Assembly: GCA_002753745.1 (NCBI GenBank)
Contig: PEAR01000006.1
Coordinates: 1-39,765 of the forward strand
Length of the DNA: 39,765 nt
Direction: 5' to 3'
DNA from: Candidatus Omnitrophota bacterium
GTDB taxonomy: Bacteria > Omnitrophota > Gorgyraeia > Zapsychrales > Fredricksoniimonadaceae
Shown here: piece after piece, positions 5,406 through 38,777 of the stretch
Numbering within the stretch: the first letter of the stretch is position 1
How the letters are laid out: the number at the start of each line of letters is the position of its first letter
Position numbers and translations under genes: made by a program
The notes under the pieces: model-generated
Database searches by the model: none
Told to the model about the DNA's origin: nothing
The model's input: only the letters and a program-made list of their open reading frames with translations

Positions 5406-7160
5406 TTATAAACGTTTCCCGATAATGCGCAGGGCTTTTTCGATAAAAGGGCCGCTGCGCGCATTTTGCGGCTGAATAAGCGCACGCTGCATTTCACGCT
5501 CGGAAAGATTTTTAGGTACGTACACCCGCTCGCCGGTAAAAGGATGCATCGCGGTATGATACATGCACCCCGAGACGGTCATCGGCAAAGGAATAAAATC
5601 CTGCACCTGCTCAGGGTTCATGCCGCGCTTTTTGAGTGTGGTGGCACAGTTATACGCCTCGTTGAGATCACACCCGGGATGGGCGGTAATAAAGTAATTG
5701 GCCAGGTACTGGCGGCTTTTAAGTCCCGCATTAATCAGCTCAAACTTGCGCACAAATTCCTCATACTTGGCATGCGGGGGCTTGTTCATCAGCGCCAGCA
5801 CCTTGTCGTCGGTATGCTCGGGCGCCACTTTCATCTGGCCGCTCACATGATGCGCGCACAATTCCTTAAAATACGCCTGGGCTTCCGCCTCGATCAAGAG
5901 GTCATACCGCAACCCGCTGCCGATAAAAACATGTTTGACGCCGGGAACCTGACGGATCGCGCGGTACAACTCAAGGCATTGATCATAACCCGCTTTCAGT
6001 GACGGGCACTTGGACGGCATGATGCAATGCTTGTCGCGGCACGGACCATGGGTTTCCCAGTTGCGGCAGGAAGCGGCATACAGATTCGCCGTCGGCCCGC
6101 CGACATCCGAGATCGTCCCCCGGAAATCCGGGTCTTTGGCCATGCGGCGAACTTCATTTAACACCGAATGCTGGGTGCGGCTTTGGATCACGCGCCCCTG
6201 ATGCATCGCAAGGCCGCAAAATGAGCACTCGCCCGAACACCCGCGCACCACCGTGATCGACCAGCGCACCGTTTCAAAACCCTTGACCCCGCCCTGCGCG
6301 TCATAAGACGGATGCCAGCGCCGGGCATACGGCAAGTCATAACTTTTATCCAACTCTTCCGACGACAATGGCAACGCCGGCGGATTTTGCAGCACCACAC
6401 GATCCCCATGCGGTTGCGCCAGTACTTTACCGGTCCGCGGATTCATTTCATCATACGCCAGGCGGAACGCTTTATTAAACGCTTTGGGATCAGCCGAAAC
6501 CTCGTCATAAGAAGGCAGCATCACGGCGCCTTCGGGGACCTGGCCGGGCTTCACACCCGCCACCGTCCCCCGCACATCCGTGATCATGGCGCAACCCTGA
6601 CCCTGATGCAGCCGGTCAACCACCTCGCATACCGGCCGCTCGCCCATCCCGTAAACCAGAATATCGGCTTTCGCATCCAGCAATAATGAACGGCGCACCG
6701 CATCATCCCAATAATCATAATGCGCCAACCGCCGCATGCTGGCTTCGATCCCGCCGAGAATGATCGGCAACCCCTTGAAGGCCGCGCGCAAGCGATTGGC
6801 ATACACAATGCTCGCCCGGTCCGGGCGCCGGCCGGTTTTACCGCCGGGAGCAAAATCATCTTCCCGCCTTGCCCGCTTATTAGCCGAATAATTGGCCACC
6901 ATCGAATCTACATTGCCCGCCGTAACCATGGCGCACAACCGGGGCCTCCCCAAACGCACAAAATCATCCTGCTTACGCCAGTCCGGCTGGGCAATAATTC
7001 CTACCTTATATCCCCTCGACTCCAGCAAACGCCCGACCAACGCAGTGCCATAAGACGGATGATCCACATAAGCATCACCAGTCACCAACAAGACATCAAG
7101 CTCCTTCCAACCGAGCCTGGTCATTTCATCATGGAACATGGGCAAGAATTTAGCAGCCAT
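5406..7160 (-). CDS. ygiQ: YgiQ-family radical SAM protein
   Basis: The protein has 584 residues. The N terminus (MAAKFLPMFHDEM... with TGDAYVDHPSYG near 27-38) is typical of YgiQ and resembles a B12-binding-like fold. The radical-SAM cluster motif is RGCSGECSFCG near residues 305-316 (CxxxCxxC), expected to bind a 4Fe-4S cluster and S-adenosylmethionine. Cys-rich CRDKHCIMPSKC near 375-385 and the C-terminal MHPFTGERVYVPK are also YgiQ hallmarks. The exact reaction is unknown. The ATG shares one base with the epimerase stop (TAATG), and its ribosome site GGAGGAGG lies in one arm of a GC-rich palindromic repeat, so this repeat now supplies the initiation signal. Confidence 0.92.
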   Translation of the reverse strand: MAAKFLPMFHDEMTRLGWKELDVLLVTGDAYVDHPSYGTALVGRLLESRGYKVGIIAQPDWRKQDDFVRLGRPRLCAMVTAGNVDSMVANYSANKRARREDDFAPGGKTGRRPDRASIVYANRLRAAFKGLPIILGGIEASMRRLAHYDYWDDAVRRSLLLDAKADILVYGMGERPVCEVVDRLHQGQGCAMITDVRGTVAGVKPGQVPEGAVMLPSYDEVSADPKAFNKAFRLAYDEMNPRTGKVLAQPHGDRVVLQNPPALPLSSEELDKSYDLPYARRWHPSYDAQGGVKGFETVRWSITVVRGCSGECSFCGLAMHQGRVIQSRTQHSVLNEVRRMAKDPDFRGTISDVGGPTANLYAASCRNWETHGPCRDKHCIMPSKCPSLKAGYDQCLELYRAIRQVPGVKHVFIGSGLRYDLLIEAEAQAYFKELCAHHVSGQMKVAPEHTDDKVLALMNKPPHAKYEEFVRKFELINAGLKSRQYLANYFITAHPGCDLNEAYNCATTLKKRGMNPEQVQDFIPLPMTVSGCMYHTAMHPFTGERVYVPKNLSEREMQRALIQPQNARSGPFIEKALRIIGKRL

Positions 7161-8398
7161 TACCTCCTCCCTCCCCGGGAGGGGGAAGGTTCAAAGCATT
7201 TTTGATGAAAAGACAATATATTTCCGGGCTTAGCTTTCGTCACATCAAATTCGCCGCGGACGTTTACGTATGGTGAACGCGCCAACGGGCCTTTTATAAA
7301 AAATGTTGTATCCAGATCAATAAAATCGAAACATCCCAGACCTGCGGCGAAATGAGCCGCAGCCGTTATGGCCAAAGCACTTTCCATCATGGCCCCGATC
7401 ATCAGCTTAGCACCTGTTGCTCTAGCCAGGCGGACAATCGCCTCTCCCTCCAAAAAACCACTCTTCATCAGCTTAATATTGATCGCATTAACTGATCCCG
7501 ATTTAAGGGCAAAAACAGCTGACTTTAAAGAACTTACGCTTTCGTCAGCGCAGACAGGAATACCTGCCGAGCGGGTTAATTGTTTCAATCCATCCCAATC
7601 ATCTTTTTTCACCGGCTGTTCCAAAAGCACAGGCACCACACCTTTAGCCTTCAGCGTTTTCAAGAACTTCAGCATCACTGGTGCCGTAAACGCCTGGTTA
7701 GCGTCAAGAATAATTGAAGACTTGGGCGCCCGTTTCGCAACCATCAACACCCGCTCAATATCCAACTCCGGCTCGCGCCCCACCTTGATCTTAAACGTGC
7801 GAAACCCGCGCTTGTAGAAATCCCTCGCCGCCGCTTCAGCCTCAATCAGCGAACCAATCACAATCGTAATATCCGTCGACAGCTTCACCGGTTTATCCCC
7901 GAACAACCGCCACAACGGGATCTTCATCGACCGGGAAAAAGCATCCAGCACCGCCATTTCAAACGCGGCCAAAGCTGCCCCATTCATGGCGGAGCCATGG
8001 GGCAGCGGTGTGCCGACCCCAGTCAGGTCGGCCAAAGCTGCCCCATTCATGGCGGAGCCATGGGGCAGCGGTATGCCGACCCCAGTCAGGTCGGCCAAAG
8101 CCGCATGATTGCCTTCAAACTTTTCTTTAAAGGCGCCCAGCAAACCACGATAATCCGAAATATCCTCCCCCACCAGCGCCGCGCCAGCCTCTTTCAAATT
8201 CGCGGTCGTCTGCGGAATGGTTTCCCCCGTAATATGCGTCGCCACCGCCGCCTCACCGTAACCGCATATGCCATCTTCCAGTTGAATACAAAACAAAACA
8301 TTCTCCAGCGACTGATGCTGCCCCGTCGCAATACGAAACGGGGAATATAACGGCGCCAATAACGGGCAAACTTTAATATTCCTGACGATCATCGACAT
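7160..8398 (-). CDS. Dipeptide epimerase (enolase superfamily) with a 42-residue repeat insertion
   Basis: Enolase-superfamily enzyme of 412 residues. Visible active-site motifs are KIKVG (two catalytic Lys, near 203), LDANQAF (metal Asp), LLEQPV (metal Glu), CADES (metal Asp), NIKLMKSG (Lys on the opposite face) and the DLDT motif near the C terminus, which in dipeptide epimerases contacts the substrate amino group. L-Ala-D/L-Glu epimerisation in murein peptide recycling is the best guess, supported by the NlpC/P60 gene in the same operon. Two oddities: residues about 101-143 are two tandem 21-residue repeats inserted just before the ALAAFEMAVLDA helix, where relatives have none, and the last residues (PSPSRGGRR) are encoded by a GC-rich palindrome. 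It lies 4 bases after nhaD, with GGGGTGA as a ribosome site. Whether the inserted enzyme is active is unknown. Confidence 0.88.
   Translation of the reverse strand: MSMIVRNIKVCPLLAPLYSPFRIATGQHQSLENVLFCIQLEDGICGYGEAAVATHITGETIPQTTANLKEAGAALVGEDISDYRGLLGAFKEKFEGNHAALADLTGVGIPLPHGSAMNGAALADLTGVGTPLPHGSAMNGAALAAFEMAVLDAFSRSMKIPLWRLFGDKPVKLSTDITIVIGSLIEAEAAARDFYKRGFRTFKIKVGREPELDIERVLMVAKRAPKSSIILDANQAFTAPVMLKFLKTLKAKGVVPVLLEQPVKKDDWDGLKQLTRSAGIPVCADESVSSLKSAVFALKSGSVNAINIKLMKSGFLEGEAIVRLARATGAKLMIGAMMESALAITAAAHFAAGLGCFDFIDLDTTFFIKGPLARSPYVNVRGEFDVTKAKPGNILSFHQKCFEPSPSRGGRR
7163..7193. repeat. GC-rich palindromic repeat, copy 1 (epimerase 3' end / ygiQ ribosome site)
   Basis: This is an imperfect inverted repeat centred near 7176. 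Its right half GGGAGGGGGAAGGTTCAA is the exact reverse complement of the left arm of the perfect palindrome at 38747-38777. It encodes the last residues of the epimerase and carries the GGAGGAGG ribosome site of ygiQ. Two substitutions in the left arm break perfect symmetry, possibly selected for ribosome binding. Confidence 0.75.
7971..8096. repeat. Two tandem 63-bp palindrome-bearing units inside the epimerase gene
   Basis: Units 7971-8033 and 8034-8096 differ at one base (Thr versus Ile codon). Each contains two inverted repeats. In unit 1 these are GCTGCCCCAT (7974-7983) with ATGGGGCAGC (7997-8006), plus a nested CATGGC-gga-GCCATG, and GCCGACC (8012-8018) with GGTCGGC (8026-8032). The length is a multiple of three, so the reading frame is kept. 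The design resembles the in-frame palindromic elements known from Rickettsia, although these sequences are not the Rickettsia ones. Confidence 0.9.
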
Positions 8399-14614: not shown

Positions 14615-17600
14615 TTACTTTTTCTCGCCCAAGAATACTTTTAAATCCGTCATTGGCAGGACATTCATTATCACGGGAATAAACCCTGGGGCATTTTGCA
14701 TCTGCTCAAGCATGGCCGCGTCAACTTTCAGATTAATGCCTTCGCCGGAATTCCGAACTTCAAGCGGCGCTCTATCCGCGGTTAAATCAATACCCCCAGG
14801 CCCCGAATCTTGAGCGGCATCACTGCCTTTGCTGATATGTTCAACGATTACCCGAATAATCTTTTCCTCTCCCATAAAACCCTTCGTTAGTCGCCATCTG
14901 TCGACAATTCCCTCCAAATCACTTTCGCGCAGAATTTTCCCGTCAAGCCCCGCTTGATAAACATCAGAAATTGCATGAAACAGAGGAGACTGTTCATCAG
15001 ATAAGAACTGAATCCGCGCAAGACAGGCTTTGGTTAAAGGAAAAGCCATAAAAGTCTCCGGCAACTTCTTAACCACCGCATCAACTTCACTTGCGGATAA
15101 ATGCTTGAATTGATTTCTAAACCGGCTGGCCTCGACCCTTTCAGTCATTTGCAGTACAAAACTTGTTCCCGGCGATGGCGCACCTGGCGCATAATCAAGG
15201 AAACTGCCATCAACCGCCGCAGAAAACCCTGAATATCCGGTCATATCCGATAATCGCCCTGTCCGCAGGCTAAACACCACTAATGCCAGCCACGGAAATT
15301 CACCATTTTTGATAATTCCTCTGAACACAGATGAATATTTTCGATACACCTTGGGAATAATTTCTTCATCCTCCTCACAGGCCTTGAGAAAATTGCGAAT
15401 AATCGCATCCTCGCCAGCTCTCAAATCCTTCGCGTAATCATTCAAGCGCGTCAACTTCATAAAAGGCTTTTCGCTATGGCTTCCGATCGCCTCCATCAAT
15501 ATCAGGGCCGTCGTTAAAAATATATTTTCCCCCTTCGTATTCTGCCTCATTTGGGAAAATAATGACTTAAGATATTCAACGTTCTCCTGCGAGAGCAACA
15601 CCTTCCTGTCTGCAAAAACATGTTTAGGCGCTACCACCACCGTGCGCACGGCCGGCGCCGGCAGGAGCTTAAAACCATATTCCCCATTTAAAATTGCGCG
15701 CCAGAACTCCGGTTGCTCAGCCATAAATTGTCGCTCTATCCCCCGATAAACCGACGTTTCAATATTAATGGCCATGACGTCCCTATCCATCTTTAATGAA
15801 ACCACAGGGTCACTGTCCACTCCCGAAACTTCAACTTTCGCCCCGGCCATGGGAGCCGTATAAAAGTAGAACGAAATCGTCGCCGCATTTTTGCGCCAAT
15901 GTACAGGCGTCCATTCAACAGTGCTCCCGCGAATCAGAATTCCATCTTCCACCTGATGACCACTGTTAAAACTCCACTGACCATCACGTTGAACAAGCAC
16001 TTGAAATCTTTCCGTTCCCGCAATCCCGTCCTGCGATTGAGAGCTCGCGCTAAAAATCCTGGAGACATCTCCATCGGAATCCAGGTGAAATGACGGATTA
16101 TTCCGAAGAACCTGCAACATTGATGAATCCGCCTGCCGCCCATCCTGGTCGGCATCAGGGCCTTGCGGTCTTAAATATTTCCTGGCGATTTTTTTAAGGG
16201 CCTCGGCCTTTGGCGATGGAGGAAGCGCGTTTAATCCTGCAATAATCACCTCGAAACACATTTTCTTGCGCGCTTGCAATCTTTCGGCGTATATCTGGAT
16301 TCCATCCATCCCACGGGCTTTCGCGGCCGCACGCAAGGCTTCGGGCATGATCGTATTCATCCGATGCAAAGCGTGATCCAGGCGCTTTAAATCAAGTTTC
16401 TCAATCTGATAATCCCAAAAAAATTCGAACGCGCTTTCGATATCAATACGACCATGTATATTCAATTTTCCCCAAAGATCATGATTGCTAAGATCCAAAT
16501 TGTAAAGAATGTAGCGATCCCTGCCCGCTATTCTTTTCGTTGACAAATTTCGCGCCCCTTGAAAATCGAAATCTGTACTTCCCGTAAACAATAAATACAC
16601 CAGCAGTTCCTCCAAACCCGACGAATCGGGTTGATTAAGATCTTTAATCGTCATTTGGTCAACATCAGCCCTCAAATCAGCCGCCAGACGATCCGAACTT
16701 CCTGATTGATTAAGCAGGCCTGCGGCCACGGAAGGAACGGCCAGAACATCTTTCGTATTTACCTGATAAATCCCCGGCACATTGGCCCCAAGCTCTTTGG
16801 CGATCCAGAAGTTCAATAATTCACGCTGTACACTGATACGATCCTTCGCTTTTAGAAAATACCCTCGGCCGGCTTTCCGTGCCAGCCAAACCCAGTCTGA
16901 AACCCGCTCACCGATATCCTGAGCCTCAATGCGCATGATTTCCGTCCCATCGCCCGCCAGCGATTGTGAAGCGTCCTTACGCATTGCCTGTGCCCGCGGA
17001 ATCTGCCCGGCCGCAATATGCCCGCCCTGCCCGTCTTCTTGTGCCTGTTTTTTCTCCTCACGAAACCTGCCCGAGAGTTTCTGCAGTAAAACCCTGAGAA
17101 TAGACTGATTTGTCCCCGCACTTTCAGGCACCTCTGAAAAATCCGTTGTCACTTTCATGGCCGCACTCATAACCCTGTCCTGGGCCGAAAAGCCGCCGGA
17201 GAAATATTTTCTCGGGATTAACTCCGCCGAAACGGCATCCCGCTCCTCTTTGACCAGATTAAACGCACCCTTTTTAAAGGCGGCGACATATTGTTGCCAG
17301 ATTTGTTCGGGGTCGGTAAATGCGGGATGGGAGGAGTCGGCAGCAAACAAACTGTCTGGGTATTTTGTACCCTGGATTTTGTTTTTATCAACATATACCT
17401 GGGATAACAGGCTTTCCTTGATTTTCTTTTTGTACCAGGCGGCGAGGATTAAGGACTGATAGACTTGGCGCAACTGGGCGAAGTTTTGGCCTTCGTTGAC
17501 TTCTTTTTCAAGGATGGGGATGATAATATCGCGGAGAATTTGTTTGGCCATATCGCTGGGCGCAATAAATTGCGCCCCTACGTTCATAGATGATTGACCG

Positions 17601-18664
17601 TCGGCGCTCAACAAACTTCCGACTCCATTCACGAATGCCGGGCCGCTGGGGCTCGATACATTTCCCCCGACGTTCATCGATGCCTGGCCGTCGGCGCTCA
17701 ACAAACTTCCACCTCCGTTCACGGACACCTGGACGGCTGCGCTCAACAAACTTCCACCACCGTTCACTGATGCCGGGCCGTCGGCGCTCGATACATTTAC
17801 CCCGGCGTTCATCGATGCCTGGCCGGCGGCGCTCAACAAACTTCCGCCTCCATTCACGGATGCCGGGCCGCTGGGGCTCGATACATTTCCCCCGACGTTC
17901 ATCGATGCCTGACCGTCGGCGCTCAACAAACTTCCGCCTCCATTCACGGATGCCTGGACGTAGGGGCGCGATTTATCGCGCCCAGCGTATTGGCGATTAT
18001 CATTTTTCTCCAACGCCAAATAATCCGTCTCCAACATCACCTTCAAATGACTGTTAACGATATACGCCGTGGCGGCTTGGGCATTCTCGTACACCACGGC
18101 CTTGTCAGGCATAATCCAAACTTTGTTGAAGGTATCAACCGGGATATCCGTAGTGCCGAATTTTTCATACGTTTCCTTGTAAACCCGGGCCCAGAATTTC
18201 TTGCCCGTCTCGCCCTCGGGATACAAAAGCGATGAAGTGATTTGTTTAAGAATATAATCCTGCGCCAGCAAATCGCGGCCCATTTCGGTTTGGCCAAAGG
18301 CGTCGGGGATAATGCGGTCTTTTTCATACGGGCTTAAGTTAACCCAAAGGTCTTTTTCAGGAACGGTTAAGGACGCAAGGAAATATTTGATAAGGCGTTG
18401 AGTGTTCCCTGCATTGGAGAGATCTAACGGGTCACCCGCATGGTCGTCACCCTTGTCCAGAATGAAATCCAGGCGCAAGGGATTATTGGGATAAACCTTG
18501 ATGCCTTTAAAAACTGACGGATTAAAAGACGGGCTTAAATTGACCAGCGTGCCGGGCACTGGCAAAACACGCATGCTCTGCGCATAGGAAGGCATCACGC
18601 TTGTCATTAAAAACACGGCAAGCGTCACGGCACAAATAATTCTGTTTGTAAATCTTCCCCCCAT
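14615..18664 (-). CDS. Large secreted paralogue P2 with repeat insertion and kinase-like domain
   Basis: The protein has 1349 residues. A signal peptide (cleavage near SYA-Q, residue 29) is followed by the module shared with P1 and P3: DLWVNLSPYEKDRI near 108, DLLAQDYILKQ near 130, FWARVY, EKEVNEG near 388, PRKYFSGGF near 485. A low-complexity insertion interrupts it at about 226-370. Residues about 580-760 look like a protein-kinase-type fold: GYFLKAK (Lys) near 600, an acidic residue in the RELLNFWIAKELG helix, GSTDFDFQGARNL (Asp...Asn) near 700, and YNLDLSNHD (metal Asp) near 722. No family name can be assigned to the rest. The last 60 residues are the GGIDL...GFIPVI tail also found in P3. 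Probably exported, perhaps through the T2SS encoded further right. The start ATG has GGGCGGAGA upstream. Confidence 0.85.
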   Translation of the reverse strand: MGGRFTNRIICAVTLAVFLMTSVMPSYAQSMRVLPVPGTLVNLSPSFNPSVFKGIKVYPNNPLRLDFILDKGDDHAGDPLDLSNAGNTQRLIKYFLASLTVPEKDLWVNLSPYEKDRIIPDAFGQTEMGRDLLAQDYILKQITSSLLYPEGETGKKFWARVYKETYEKFGTTDIPVDTFNKVWIMPDKAVVYENAQAATAYIVNSHLKVMLETDYLALEKNDNRQYAGRDKSRPYVQASVNGGGSLLSADGQASMNVGGNVSSPSGPASVNGGGSLLSAAGQASMNAGVNVSSADGPASVNGGGSLLSAAVQVSVNGGGSLLSADGQASMNVGGNVSSPSGPAFVNGVGSLLSADGQSSMNVGAQFIAPSDMAKQILRDIIIPILEKEVNEGQNFAQLRQVYQSLILAAWYKKKIKESLLSQVYVDKNKIQGTKYPDSLFAADSSHPAFTDPEQIWQQYVAAFKKGAFNLVKEERDAVSAELIPRKYFSGGFSAQDRVMSAAMKVTTDFSEVPESAGTNQSILRVLLQKLSGRFREEKKQAQEDGQGGHIAAGQIPRAQAMRKDASQSLAGDGTEIMRIEAQDIGERVSDWVWLARKAGRGYFLKAKDRISVQRELLNFWIAKELGANVPGIYQVNTKDVLAVPSVAAGLLNQSGSSDRLAADLRADVDQMTIKDLNQPDSSGLEELLVYLLFTGSTDFDFQGARNLSTKRIAGRDRYILYNLDLSNHDLWGKLNIHGRIDIESAFEFFWDYQIEKLDLKRLDHALHRMNTIMPEALRAAAKARGMDGIQIYAERLQARKKMCFEVIIAGLNALPPSPKAEALKKIARKYLRPQGPDADQDGRQADSSMLQVLRNNPSFHLDSDGDVSRIFSASSQSQDGIAGTERFQVLVQRDGQWSFNSGHQVEDGILIRGSTVEWTPVHWRKNAATISFYFYTAPMAGAKVEVSGVDSDPVVSLKMDRDVMAINIETSVYRGIERQFMAEQPEFWRAILNGEYGFKLLPAPAVRTVVVAPKHVFADRKVLLSQENVEYLKSLFSQMRQNTKGENIFLTTALILMEAIGSHSEKPFMKLTRLNDYAKDLRAGEDAIIRNFLKACEEDEEIIPKVYRKYSSVFRGIIKNGEFPWLALVVFSLRTGRLSDMTGYSGFSAAVDGSFLDYAPGAPSPGTSFVLQMTERVEASRFRNQFKHLSASEVDAVVKKLPETFMAFPLTKACLARIQFLSDEQSPLFHAISDVYQAGLDGKILRESDLEGIVDRWRLTKGFMGEEKIIRVIVEHISKGSDAAQDSGPGGIDLTADRAPLEVRNSGEGINLKVDAAMLEQMQNAPGFIPVIMNVLPMTDLKVFLGEKK
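17554..17987. repeat. 434-bp in-frame block bounded by 30-bp inverted repeats
   Basis: The ends 17554-17583 and 17958-17987 are inverted copies of one 30-bp sequence, CGCTGGGCGCRATAAATY followed by GCGCCCCTACGT. Each end is itself a perfect palindrome: 9-bp arms GGGCGCAAT/ATTGCGCCC at 17558-17577, and GGGCGCGAT/ATCGCGCCC at 17964-17983, each with a 2-nt loop. The only two differences between the copies (A to G and T to C) pair with each other, so both hairpins stay perfect. The block lies in a loop of the shared module where P1 and P3 have only about 20 residues, which supports insertion. In P2 it is translated, beginning GRDKSRPY and ending QFIAPS. Confidence 0.9.
17581..17940. repeat. Eight tandem 45-bp repeats (15 residues each)
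   Basis: Exactly eight 45-bp units plus a partial ninth lie between the inverted repeats. Two unit types alternate in part. In protein they read roughly ASVNGGGSLLSADGQ and ASMNVGGNVSSPSGP, small-residue-rich and probably flexible. Units differ by a few substitutions only, so the expansion is fairly recent. There are no unique spacers, so this is not a CRISPR array. Confidence 0.9.
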
Positions 18665-24815: not shown

Positions 24816-27089
24816 TCAGCGGTTTATGTTAGCCGGCTCGATACGGTAAATCACCGGTGTAAACCCGTATATATCAAGCTGCGACCAGTCCTGCTGGTTG
24901 ACCGGCAAAATGACGCCCGCCCCATCGCGCCTGATCTGCAGGCCGAGCCTCTTCACATCAAGGTCTATACCGCCGACGCGTTTTTCAAAACCCTGGGAAG
25001 CATCCGCCGCTTGTGCCGGACTGGCACCGTTAACAGCATTAGTCTCTTTTCCCGAACTGACAGGATGCAGATTCACCTTCATCCAGTCCAGCAAACGGAC
25101 AAATCCCGCTTTAGTATCAGGATCCGTCTCGCGGGCGGCCTGCTGACGGACCGCATCAATAACATCACTCCTGACCGGCTGCATGGAAAGCAGCGTCACC
25201 GCCGATATTGACCGCTGGTCACGGGATCCATCCTGCAGAAAATGCAGCAGCTTTCCCCGCGCCTTTTCCAGAATCTCTTGATGGCCTTCGATTTCCTGAA
25301 TACGCTTCAATACATTGATCAGCACCCGCAGGACCAATTCTTTTTCGTGCGGGCCTTTGGCCGCCTGCACCATCAGCTGATCCACCCCTTTATCAAAATT
25401 GAACAGCAAGGCAGCAAACATGGCTTCCCTGACCGGAAACTCTTCTTTTTCATCCAGAACCTTGTCAACGATACGAGGAACGATATTATCTCCCCGTTCG
25501 ATTTGTCGACGGATAAAAAGCAGAAACGACGCATTGGATTTATCCACCCCCAGACGCATCAGCTTCACATAACTTTCAAAAACATCCGAACCATTGATCT
25601 GAAACAGCGTTTCACCAACATCCAAAAGCACTCTTAACCGTCCCGGCTTATCCAGCCGCTCATAGAACATCACCACATCCTGGCTGAATCCCTGGCCAGA
25701 CTGCCCATAACTGCGAATATCTGCCAATGCCGCAAGCTGATCACTCTCATTTGTTGACCCCAGCCTTTTTCTGATGCTGTCCGACAAAACAGGCGTTAGC
25801 GTTGAAGGCACGGCCTTGATATCAGGCCCTGCGGACTTGTTTGACGGGATAGACCCATCAGCAGGCAAAGAAAATGACAGCAAAAAACTAAGAAACAACG
25901 CTTTGGGGATCATGGCGTATTTACTTTTCATCACCAGGTCAAGGCCCGGAGAACTTTCCCTTAACCCCGCCGATATCCTGACCAAATCCCCTTTGGTCTC
26001 CTCGGCAGGACTGGAGGGCCGCTCACCCGTCTCGATGCCCTCGGCCTCAAAACGCTTCATCATGCCAGCCGGAGCAAATCCGCCAGAGAAATATTTACGC
26101 GGAAGCACTTCGCCGGTAACAGGATCGGCTTCTTCACGAATAAAGTTGTAAACACCATTCTTCGCCGACTCAAGATACCGGGCATAAACAGCCTCTTTCC
26201 CAAGACCGTCACTAAATTCAATCCCGCTAACCCTGTTTTTGTCCGCATACACCTTTCCCAACAGGCTTTCCTTCAAACGGACCTTGTACCACGCCGACAA
26301 GATCATGGCCGCGTAGATCTGGCGAACACCGGCAAAATTGGCGCCCTCATTGACTTCTTTTTCCAGGACCGGCAGAAGAATCTCCCGCAAGACCCGTCTG
26401 ACAACGGCTTGGGAACCTTCAGCTTCCGGAATCCCGGCATGACGCATAGCGTTATAGTCGCTGTCAAGCATCACCCTCAGACGACTTTGCGTGATCATGA
26501 CTTTACCGTCGTGCTCCCAGACCCTGGCTTCGGCGGGCACGATCCAGACCCGGCTAAAATTATCCATGTCAATGTCTATTGTCCCGAGCGCGCGCGCCGT
26601 ATCCGCATAGACCCTGGCCCATACCTCTTTACCCGGCACGTTCTCCGGCGAAAGCAGCGATGACGAGAATTGTTTCAAAATATAGTCCTGCGCAAGAAGG
26701 TCCCGGCCCATAACCGTACGGCCAAACATCTCGGGGACAATGCGGTCTTTTTCATCCGGAGACAGATTCACCCAAAGGTCATCTTCCGGAACAGTCAATG
26801 AAGCCAAGAAATATTTAACCGCTTTCTCCGCTTCAGACCGAAGCTCTTTTCCGGAAACCCGGTTCGTTCCGGTATCCATAAGAAAATCAAACTTGAGTGG
26901 ATCATTGGGATTAATGACCATACCCCTGAGGATAGCCGGCGTCAACACACCACTAATGCCGATCATTTTCCCCGATTCGGGCAAAACAAGGCCCTGCGCA
27001 TAGCCCGAAACCTGGCTCAACGATAAAATAACAACCAAACATAACATTACGATCCGTTTCCAAAAGCGGAAACGGCGCCAACCCGCCAT
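24816..27089 (-). CDS. Large secreted paralogue P3 with HEAT-like helical region
   Basis: The protein has 757 residues. Signal peptide with probable cleavage at GYA-Q near 32. The shared module spans about 45-335: DLWVNLSPDEKDRIV near 105, DLLAQDYILKQ near 127, VWARVY, EKEVNEG near 243, PRKYFSGGF near 333. A second hydrophobic stretch (IPKALFLSFLLSFSLPADG, about 395-413) resembles another signal peptide or a membrane anchor. Residues about 455-690 form repeated amphipathic helices (VREAMFAALLFN, ELVLRVLINVLKR, RSISAVTLLSM), consistent with HEAT-like repeats. The tail starts at GGIDL near 708 and ends with GFTPVIYRIEP. The gene lies 14 bases after the LamG gene, so the two secreted proteins are probably co-expressed. 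GGGGAG precedes the ATG. Function unknown. Confidence 0.85.
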   Translation of the reverse strand: MAGWRRFRFWKRIVMLCLVVILSLSQVSGYAQGLVLPESGKMIGISGVLTPAILRGMVINPNDPLKFDFLMDTGTNRVSGKELRSEAEKAVKYFLASLTVPEDDLWVNLSPDEKDRIVPEMFGRTVMGRDLLAQDYILKQFSSSLLSPENVPGKEVWARVYADTARALGTIDIDMDNFSRVWIVPAEARVWEHDGKVMITQSRLRVMLDSDYNAMRHAGIPEAEGSQAVVRRVLREILLPVLEKEVNEGANFAGVRQIYAAMILSAWYKVRLKESLLGKVYADKNRVSGIEFSDGLGKEAVYARYLESAKNGVYNFIREEADPVTGEVLPRKYFSGGFAPAGMMKRFEAEGIETGERPSSPAEETKGDLVRISAGLRESSPGLDLVMKSKYAMIPKALFLSFLLSFSLPADGSIPSNKSAGPDIKAVPSTLTPVLSDSIRKRLGSTNESDQLAALADIRSYGQSGQGFSQDVVMFYERLDKPGRLRVLLDVGETLFQINGSDVFESYVKLMRLGVDKSNASFLLFIRRQIERGDNIVPRIVDKVLDEKEEFPVREAMFAALLFNFDKGVDQLMVQAAKGPHEKELVLRVLINVLKRIQEIEGHQEILEKARGKLLHFLQDGSRDQRSISAVTLLSMQPVRSDVIDAVRQQAARETDPDTKAGFVRLLDWMKVNLHPVSSGKETNAVNGASPAQAADASQGFEKRVGGIDLDVKRLGLQIRRDGAGVILPVNQQDWSQLDIYGFTPVIYRIEPANINR

Positions 27090-34131: not shown

Positions 34132-34146
34132 TCAAATCCTGACAAC

Positions 34147-34185
34147 AAAAGACCCGGGTTTCCATGATGGAAACCCGGGTCTTTT
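34147..34185. terminator. Strong bidirectional terminator
   Basis: A perfect 17-bp stem (AAAAGACCCGGGTTTCC with its complement) and a 5-nt loop lie between the convergent C25 and gspM genes. T-runs occur on both strands, so it can end transcription from either side. Confidence 0.95.
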
Positions 34186-34206
34186 GTTTAATAGAAATAA
34201 TAAAAA

Positions 34207-38746: not shown

Positions 38747-38777
38747 AACCTTCCCCCTCCCGGGGAGGGGGAAGGTT
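38747..38777. repeat. GC-rich palindromic repeat, copy 2
   Basis: A perfect inverted repeat: 15-bp arms (AACCTTCCCCCTCCC and its complement) around a single base. It overlaps two bases of the gspF stop codon and lies between gspF and gspG. A diverged copy ends the epimerase gene at 7163-7193. It might act as a transcript-stabilising or attenuating hairpin that raises gspG over gspF. Confidence 0.85.

Follow-up and report, generated by a model that had tools for sequence, protein, structure and literature searches.

The stretch of Omnitrophota DNA analysed here (39,765 nucleotides; the whole stretch is hereafter the window) carries a minus-strand gene whose reading frame passes through two adjacent, hairpin-bearing 63-bp units. 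The features of the locus are as follows.

7160-8398, minus strand: host gene, a dipeptide-epimerase-like protein of the enolase superfamily (412 aa), with an insert of 42 residues after GNHAALA
7970-8032, plus strand, antisense to the gene: unit a of the 63-bp element, CAAA GCTGCC...GGTCGGC (repeat finder; model R2, E 3e-14, with this copy in the model's training set)
8033-8095, plus strand: unit b, 62/63 identical to unit a (repeat finder; model R2, E 3e-13, with this copy likewise in the training set)
7974-8006, plus strand: hairpin A of unit a, arms GCTGCCCCAT/ATGGGGCAGC, apex GGCGGAGCC (DNA folding and covariation over 22 copies)
8012-8032, plus strand: hairpin B of unit a, stem GCCGACC/GGTCGGC, loop CCAGTCA (DNA folding and covariation)
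8037-8069, plus strand: hairpin A of unit b (DNA folding and covariation)
8075-8095, plus strand: hairpin B of unit b (DNA folding and covariation)

The host protein matched the Pfam MR_MLE_N/C domains, and its best NCBIfam match was L-Ala-D/L-Glu epimerase, at a score under the cut-off. Homologues in the PDB were consistent with a dipeptide-epimerase-like identity, and the 42 residues were missing from the solved structures. The first-pass annotation had described two near-identical 63-bp units, each with two hairpins, that add 42 residues without a frameshift or stop. This description was borne out by the repeat finder (62/63), by the folding scores and by the empty sites discussed below, and the open reading frame at 7160-8398 (minus strand) indeed stays open through both units, from which the peptide DLTGVG(I/T)PLPHGSAMNGAALA is translated twice. 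In the register of the repeat finder, the direct repeats (2 × 63 bp, one mismatch) lie at 7966-8091, while the register of the family is 7970-8095. The position given earlier, 7971-8096, was the right place but one base off, inside 10 nt (CGGCCAAAGC) over which the empty site leaves the boundary ambiguous. Compared with dinucleotide shuffles, single units folded with a z of -3.4 to -3.8, and both units together with about -7.5 on either strand. At the other end of the gene, the palindrome CCTTCCCCCTCCC/GGGAGGGGGAAGG (window 7162-7191) codes for the epimerase C-terminus, PSPSRGGRR; it was found again at window 38748-38777 and also in frame beside a 63-bp unit in G000:C26 (L112).

An open reading frame with a plausible translation is compatible with the 42 residues being part of the native epimerase fold or a lineage-specific extension of the protein. 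However, protein alignments with related genomes break at the insert (query residues to about 102, resuming at about 138-141), and two genomes of the same genus, G003 and G001, have an empty site in which GNHAALA is followed directly by AFEMAVLDAF. The same residues in distant epimerases, which by the earlier account would have refuted the reading as an insert, were absent from the aligned relatives and the solved homologues. With these empty sites refuting it and the same DNA architecture present in unrelated genes, a native origin has virtually no probability in our estimate. An AlphaFold model of the enzyme from the single sequence had a pLDDT of 39, too low to be informative. The epimerase probably works with the insertion, which would lie at the surface, and no benefit is implied.

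Adjacent, near-identical units in a MAG of 240 contigs could also arise from an assembly artefact or from slippage of 63 bp at this locus alone, and the tandem copy number of two at the epimerase rests on this one assembly. Such an origin is highly improbable, given that homologous single units with covarying stems are present at further loci and in 12 more assemblies and that the frame is kept. The duplication had been called recent; the single mismatch fits that age, but the duplication is not datable, because repeats can be homogenised.

The family to which the units belong was revealed by the loop motif of hairpin B only. Searches with the exact 126-bp stretch or with hairpin A gave nothing useful in this genome, its relatives, phages, plasmids, genome_contigs or viral contigs (a lone viral match was attributed to chance), and a hairpin-B palindrome whose loop was left free showed no enrichment (205 matches versus 287 in the control). 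A relaxed hairpin-B search led to G000:C89:3695, a copy in frame in a CusB-like gene, in which the parts follow the same order as in the window: hairpin A (arms GCTGCC/GGCAGC), a short spacer and hairpin B. More copies were obtained by searching relatives with the motif TGCCGNCCCCNGTCAGGNCGGC. With covariance model R1, built from ten copies, this genome yielded 10 copies and G001 about 9, and several further genomes from the same family had one or two each. Model R2, built from 22 copies, was applied to 237 genomes from the phylum; it matched 16 times in G223, a genome from a different family, and once each in G163 and G253. The search of the unit across genomes that had been suggested earlier found the exact sequence nowhere else but did find dispersed, diverged copies, in total at least 46 spread over 13 genomes of uncultured Omnitrophota (at least 44 besides the two window units; 1-16 per genome), the genomes being fragmented MAGs. 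Among 25 genomes of other phyla, all preselected for a chance match to the degenerate motif, R2 found none; matches of that motif in other phyla scored at most 25 bits and were rejected as chance. We found no paper tying such elements to Omnitrophota.

The canonical unit is 63 bp long, or 21 codons. It starts with YRNAG (C at position 1 in 28/32 copies, A at position 4 in 30/32 and G at position 5 in 31/32) and continues with hairpin A, which has arms of 7-10 bp and, in 25 of the 32 copies, the apex GCGNAGC. This apex usually sits within NGAGC-GNA-GCGAN, the outer N-N pair of which covaries (C-G, A-T, T-A); in the window copies the apex is wholly Watson-Crick (ATGGC GGA GCCAT). A 4-nt spacer, mostly GGAG or GAAG, and then one T lead to hairpin B, with a covarying 7-bp stem and the loop YCVGTCA. 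Over 22 aligned copies, both partners vary in 16 of the 20 pairs, and double-change cells number 90 versus 24 in shuffles; for 21 matches, 20 of them outside model building, the figures were 68 versus 23 in an alignment fitted to the model. Two G001 copies have a third palindrome (AAAAGACAAGGATTCTTGTCTTTTG...) nested in the apex of hairpin A (L121 ~1461; L109; L090), and one copy bearing it lies inside ThiH with the frame intact. Many units of G223 are preceded by the palindrome GGGCGCCCCTTGTGGGCGCC and followed by CGTCGTT.TGGCGCG (L227, L231-L233, L235, L237, L238), which suggests a larger composite element.

Strong hairpins, compensatory changes and the intergenic position of some copies would also suit a cis-acting structured RNA, such as a regulatory element or terminator-like hairpin, that is kept for its function. 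In contrast to this expectation, the copies occupy both orientations and many unrelated coding regions, close relatives are without a copy at the same site, and Rfam has no match to the element (a tRNA was the sole match). In addition, the apex GCGNAGC is a known DNA mini-hairpin. We consider an RNA function very unlikely. The high stability of DNA mini-hairpins built from GCGNAGC and tandem G.A pairs leads us to favour a single-stranded DNA intermediate.

In-frame copies were found in genes for MnmA, MetG, ThiH, a CusB-like adaptor, a DRB0094-type RNA ligase, the ATP synthase delta subunit (AtpH), an IF-2B/MtnA-type isomerase and an MlaE permease protein, and one hot spot in a large secreted protein family accounts for six. 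Genic copies use both orientations and several frames, and 5 of the 9 loci of this genome are in frame within genes. In the curated set, each of the 19 genic copies has a length divisible by three, versus 3 of the 11 non-genic copies; since the set was sorted by hand and covers the intergenic G223 copies (mostly 63 bp) in part, this contrast partly reflects the canonical length. The unit has 3.57 of its six reading frames open (~60%), no more than chance as judged from shuffles, and a special coding potential was ruled out. The unit is probably tolerated in genes because its length equals 21 codons and about 60% of its frames are open. The parsimonious explanation is tolerance plus purifying selection, which would remove frame-breaking insertions, rather than a designed coding element.

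Comparison with empty sites of the same genus gave exact inserts of 63 bp in three genes, namely MetG (21 aa between GYGS and DEA), MnmA (21 aa between RRP and SCCGL) and the CusB-like gene (21 aa between GPKA and GEF), and of 2 × 63 bp in the epimerase. The inferred empty targets are CATC^CGAGCC, CGGC^CGAGCTG, AAGC^CGGAG and CGGC^CAAAGC. The single inserts measure 63 bp with 2-3 nt of ambiguous overlap at most, so a fixed target duplication is absent. Across 31 copies, the consensus of the right flank, CGAAGC, is identical to the CGAAGC with which the unit starts, and the left flank tends toward a GC end, like the end of the unit; the target therefore resembles the element's end-to-start junction (GC^CGNAGC). 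Direct repeats of at least 10 nt of the unit 5' end at G038:C19 and at G001:C31, C32 and C50, which a duplication-free mechanism leaves unaccounted for, may be remnants of tandem copies.

The same flanks bear on whether the unit is a classic MITE, which is moved by a cut-and-paste DDE transposase and has terminal inverted repeats and a fixed target-site duplication. The right flank equals the first 4 nt of the unit in 6 of 31 copies, and pairwise 10-nt similarity exceeds that of shuffles (p 0.0001), as this explanation would have it. However, the flank match is mostly the shared consensus, terminal inverted repeats of usable length are absent, and the three single-copy genes with empty sites show the small ambiguous overlap and no 4-nt duplication. 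A MITE is unlikely, if less so than the alternatives above. A 4-bp target duplication (CAAA, TGGA, CTAA) was considered and fails at the three single-copy empty sites.

Taken together, these results make it very probable that the epimerase insert is two tandem copies of a protein-less, REP-like, non-autonomous 63-bp mobile element of Omnitrophota that integrates without a fixed target duplication. That it is a dispersed mobile palindromic element is nearly certain, its mobility being deduced from dispersed copies and empty sites. The earlier reading is supported: a two-hairpin element entered the gene of a metabolic enzyme in frame and was duplicated in tandem, in a lineage unrelated to Rickettsia. 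We hypothesize that the element moves as a folded single strand whose hairpins are recognised, and that an enzyme supplied in trans would integrate it at short junction-like sites in the manner of REP and IS200/IS605 elements. Tandem copies might form by re-insertion beside an existing junction or by slippage. Hairpin recognition, the absence of target duplication and the junction-like target point to movement of the REP/IS200 type, while for a specific single-stranded DNA mechanism we see roughly even odds.

Ends of IS200/IS605 and the non-autonomous elements derived from them have subterminal hairpins, no target duplication and a short target motif; the 63-bp element is just two hairpins, without a transposase or a known tetranucleotide target. 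The small dispersed repeats of cyanobacteria are likewise very small, protein-less and inserted at particular targets, but they differ in sequence, in the two-hairpin architecture and in the in-frame habit. A Y1 transposase (PF01797) is present in 24 of 32 genomes of the family. It was absent when searched for in G001 (about 9 copies) and G003, both of which carry units, and the stretch read at the sole Y1 locus of this genome (L243) has no unit; the mobiliser may have been lost. In this co-occurrence comparison the Y1 transposase did not track the element, which speaks against it as the mobiliser, and at these places no RAYT flanked by the element was found.

GTAG-tagged, RAYT-associated REPs and REPINs (PMC3733652, PMC3116915, PMC2817692) offer the next comparison. 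GTAG REPs, which are known in the PVC superphylum, the group of Omnitrophota, are also short dispersed stem-loops with compensatory stem changes (reported for REPINs in PMC3116915) that are sometimes intragenic and code for 20-30 aa. GTAG REPs have GTAG, or a GYAG or GYRG variant, at one foot of the stem-loop; in the unit, a GNAG-like tag precedes both hairpins (22/32 at the unit start, positions 2-5; 17/32 in the spacer), with NNAG in 29/32 copies and exact GTAG in few. The unit is a fixed pair of unlike hairpins in direct order, whereas head-tail dimers are rare in GTAG families, and it has 1-16 copies per genome, with about half of this genome's loci genic, whereas GTAG REPs are mostly extragenic and high in copy number. 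A REPIN is two inverted REPs that form one long hairpin, unlike the two separate and different hairpins found here.

CGTC REPs (RPE-4, RPE-6) have a CGTC tag, a stem of 8-9 bp starting with A-T and a loop of 4-5 nt; the 63-bp unit starts with CGNAG, and its stem B has 7 bp from G-C and a 7-nt loop. The Rickettsia palindromic elements, reviewed in PMC10969869, are similarly palindromic, in frame in unrelated genes and tolerated by the protein, but as described they are larger (~150 bp) or CGTC-tagged (RPE-4, RPE-6) and differ in architecture and phylum. No Rickettsia came up when genome_contigs was scanned with the degenerate motif. Although REP-like in several traits, the element is outside the REP, REPIN, CGTC and MITE definitions.

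The first-pass annotation had treated in-frame palindromic elements as a matter of Rickettsia, which is incomplete, as cases of 20-30 residues are known elsewhere, for example in Opitutus and Thauera, whose genes contain REPs (PMC3733652). REPs of this size within genes, of both the GTAG and the CGTC type, occur in several phyla, with the highest numbers in Opitutus terrae and Rickettsia conorii (PMC3733652), and the 63-bp element adds a variant to in-frame palindromes outside Rickettsia. We raise only tentatively, and with some doubt, that it is an undescribed minimal class of mobile DNA, with a fixed, frame-neutral length of 63 bp, two unlike hairpins in direct order, its own junction as target, no duplication, a mobiliser other than Y1/RAYT, and repeated 21-residue additions to core enzymes (MetG, MnmA, AtpH). 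Core enzymes of a phylum distant from Rickettsia are thus shown to gain new peptide segments from palindromic mobile DNA, and clean before/after pairs within one genus allow tests of how a protein accommodates 21 arbitrary residues. The exact length of 63 bp, the junction-mimicking target and the absence of a Y1 transposase that tracks the element bear on how REP-like elements move without a dedicated transposase, a matter already noted for CGTC REPs (PMC3733652).

Further repeats and inserts were also noted. A secreted protein of 1349 aa (window 14615-18664, minus strand) contains an in-frame tandem array of 8 × 45 bp (17598-17957) bounded by 40-nt inverted arms, GGGCGCAAT..ATTGCGCCC (17547-17586 / 17955-17994). 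The array occupies the hot spot after LKVMLETDY, where relatives have a 63-bp unit, whereas a paralogue at 24816-27089 is uninterrupted at that point. In two genera, one shared site holds similar inserted peptides, AANQRA..RDGGGVPDPVN.A (L244 1475-1543, G001:C59; L099 1501-1563, G017:C95), which suggests a single insertion kept for long. A perfect 22-nt inverted repeat with a 1-nt loop (window 34144-34188), directly after the 1459-aa open reading frame, is probably a terminator.
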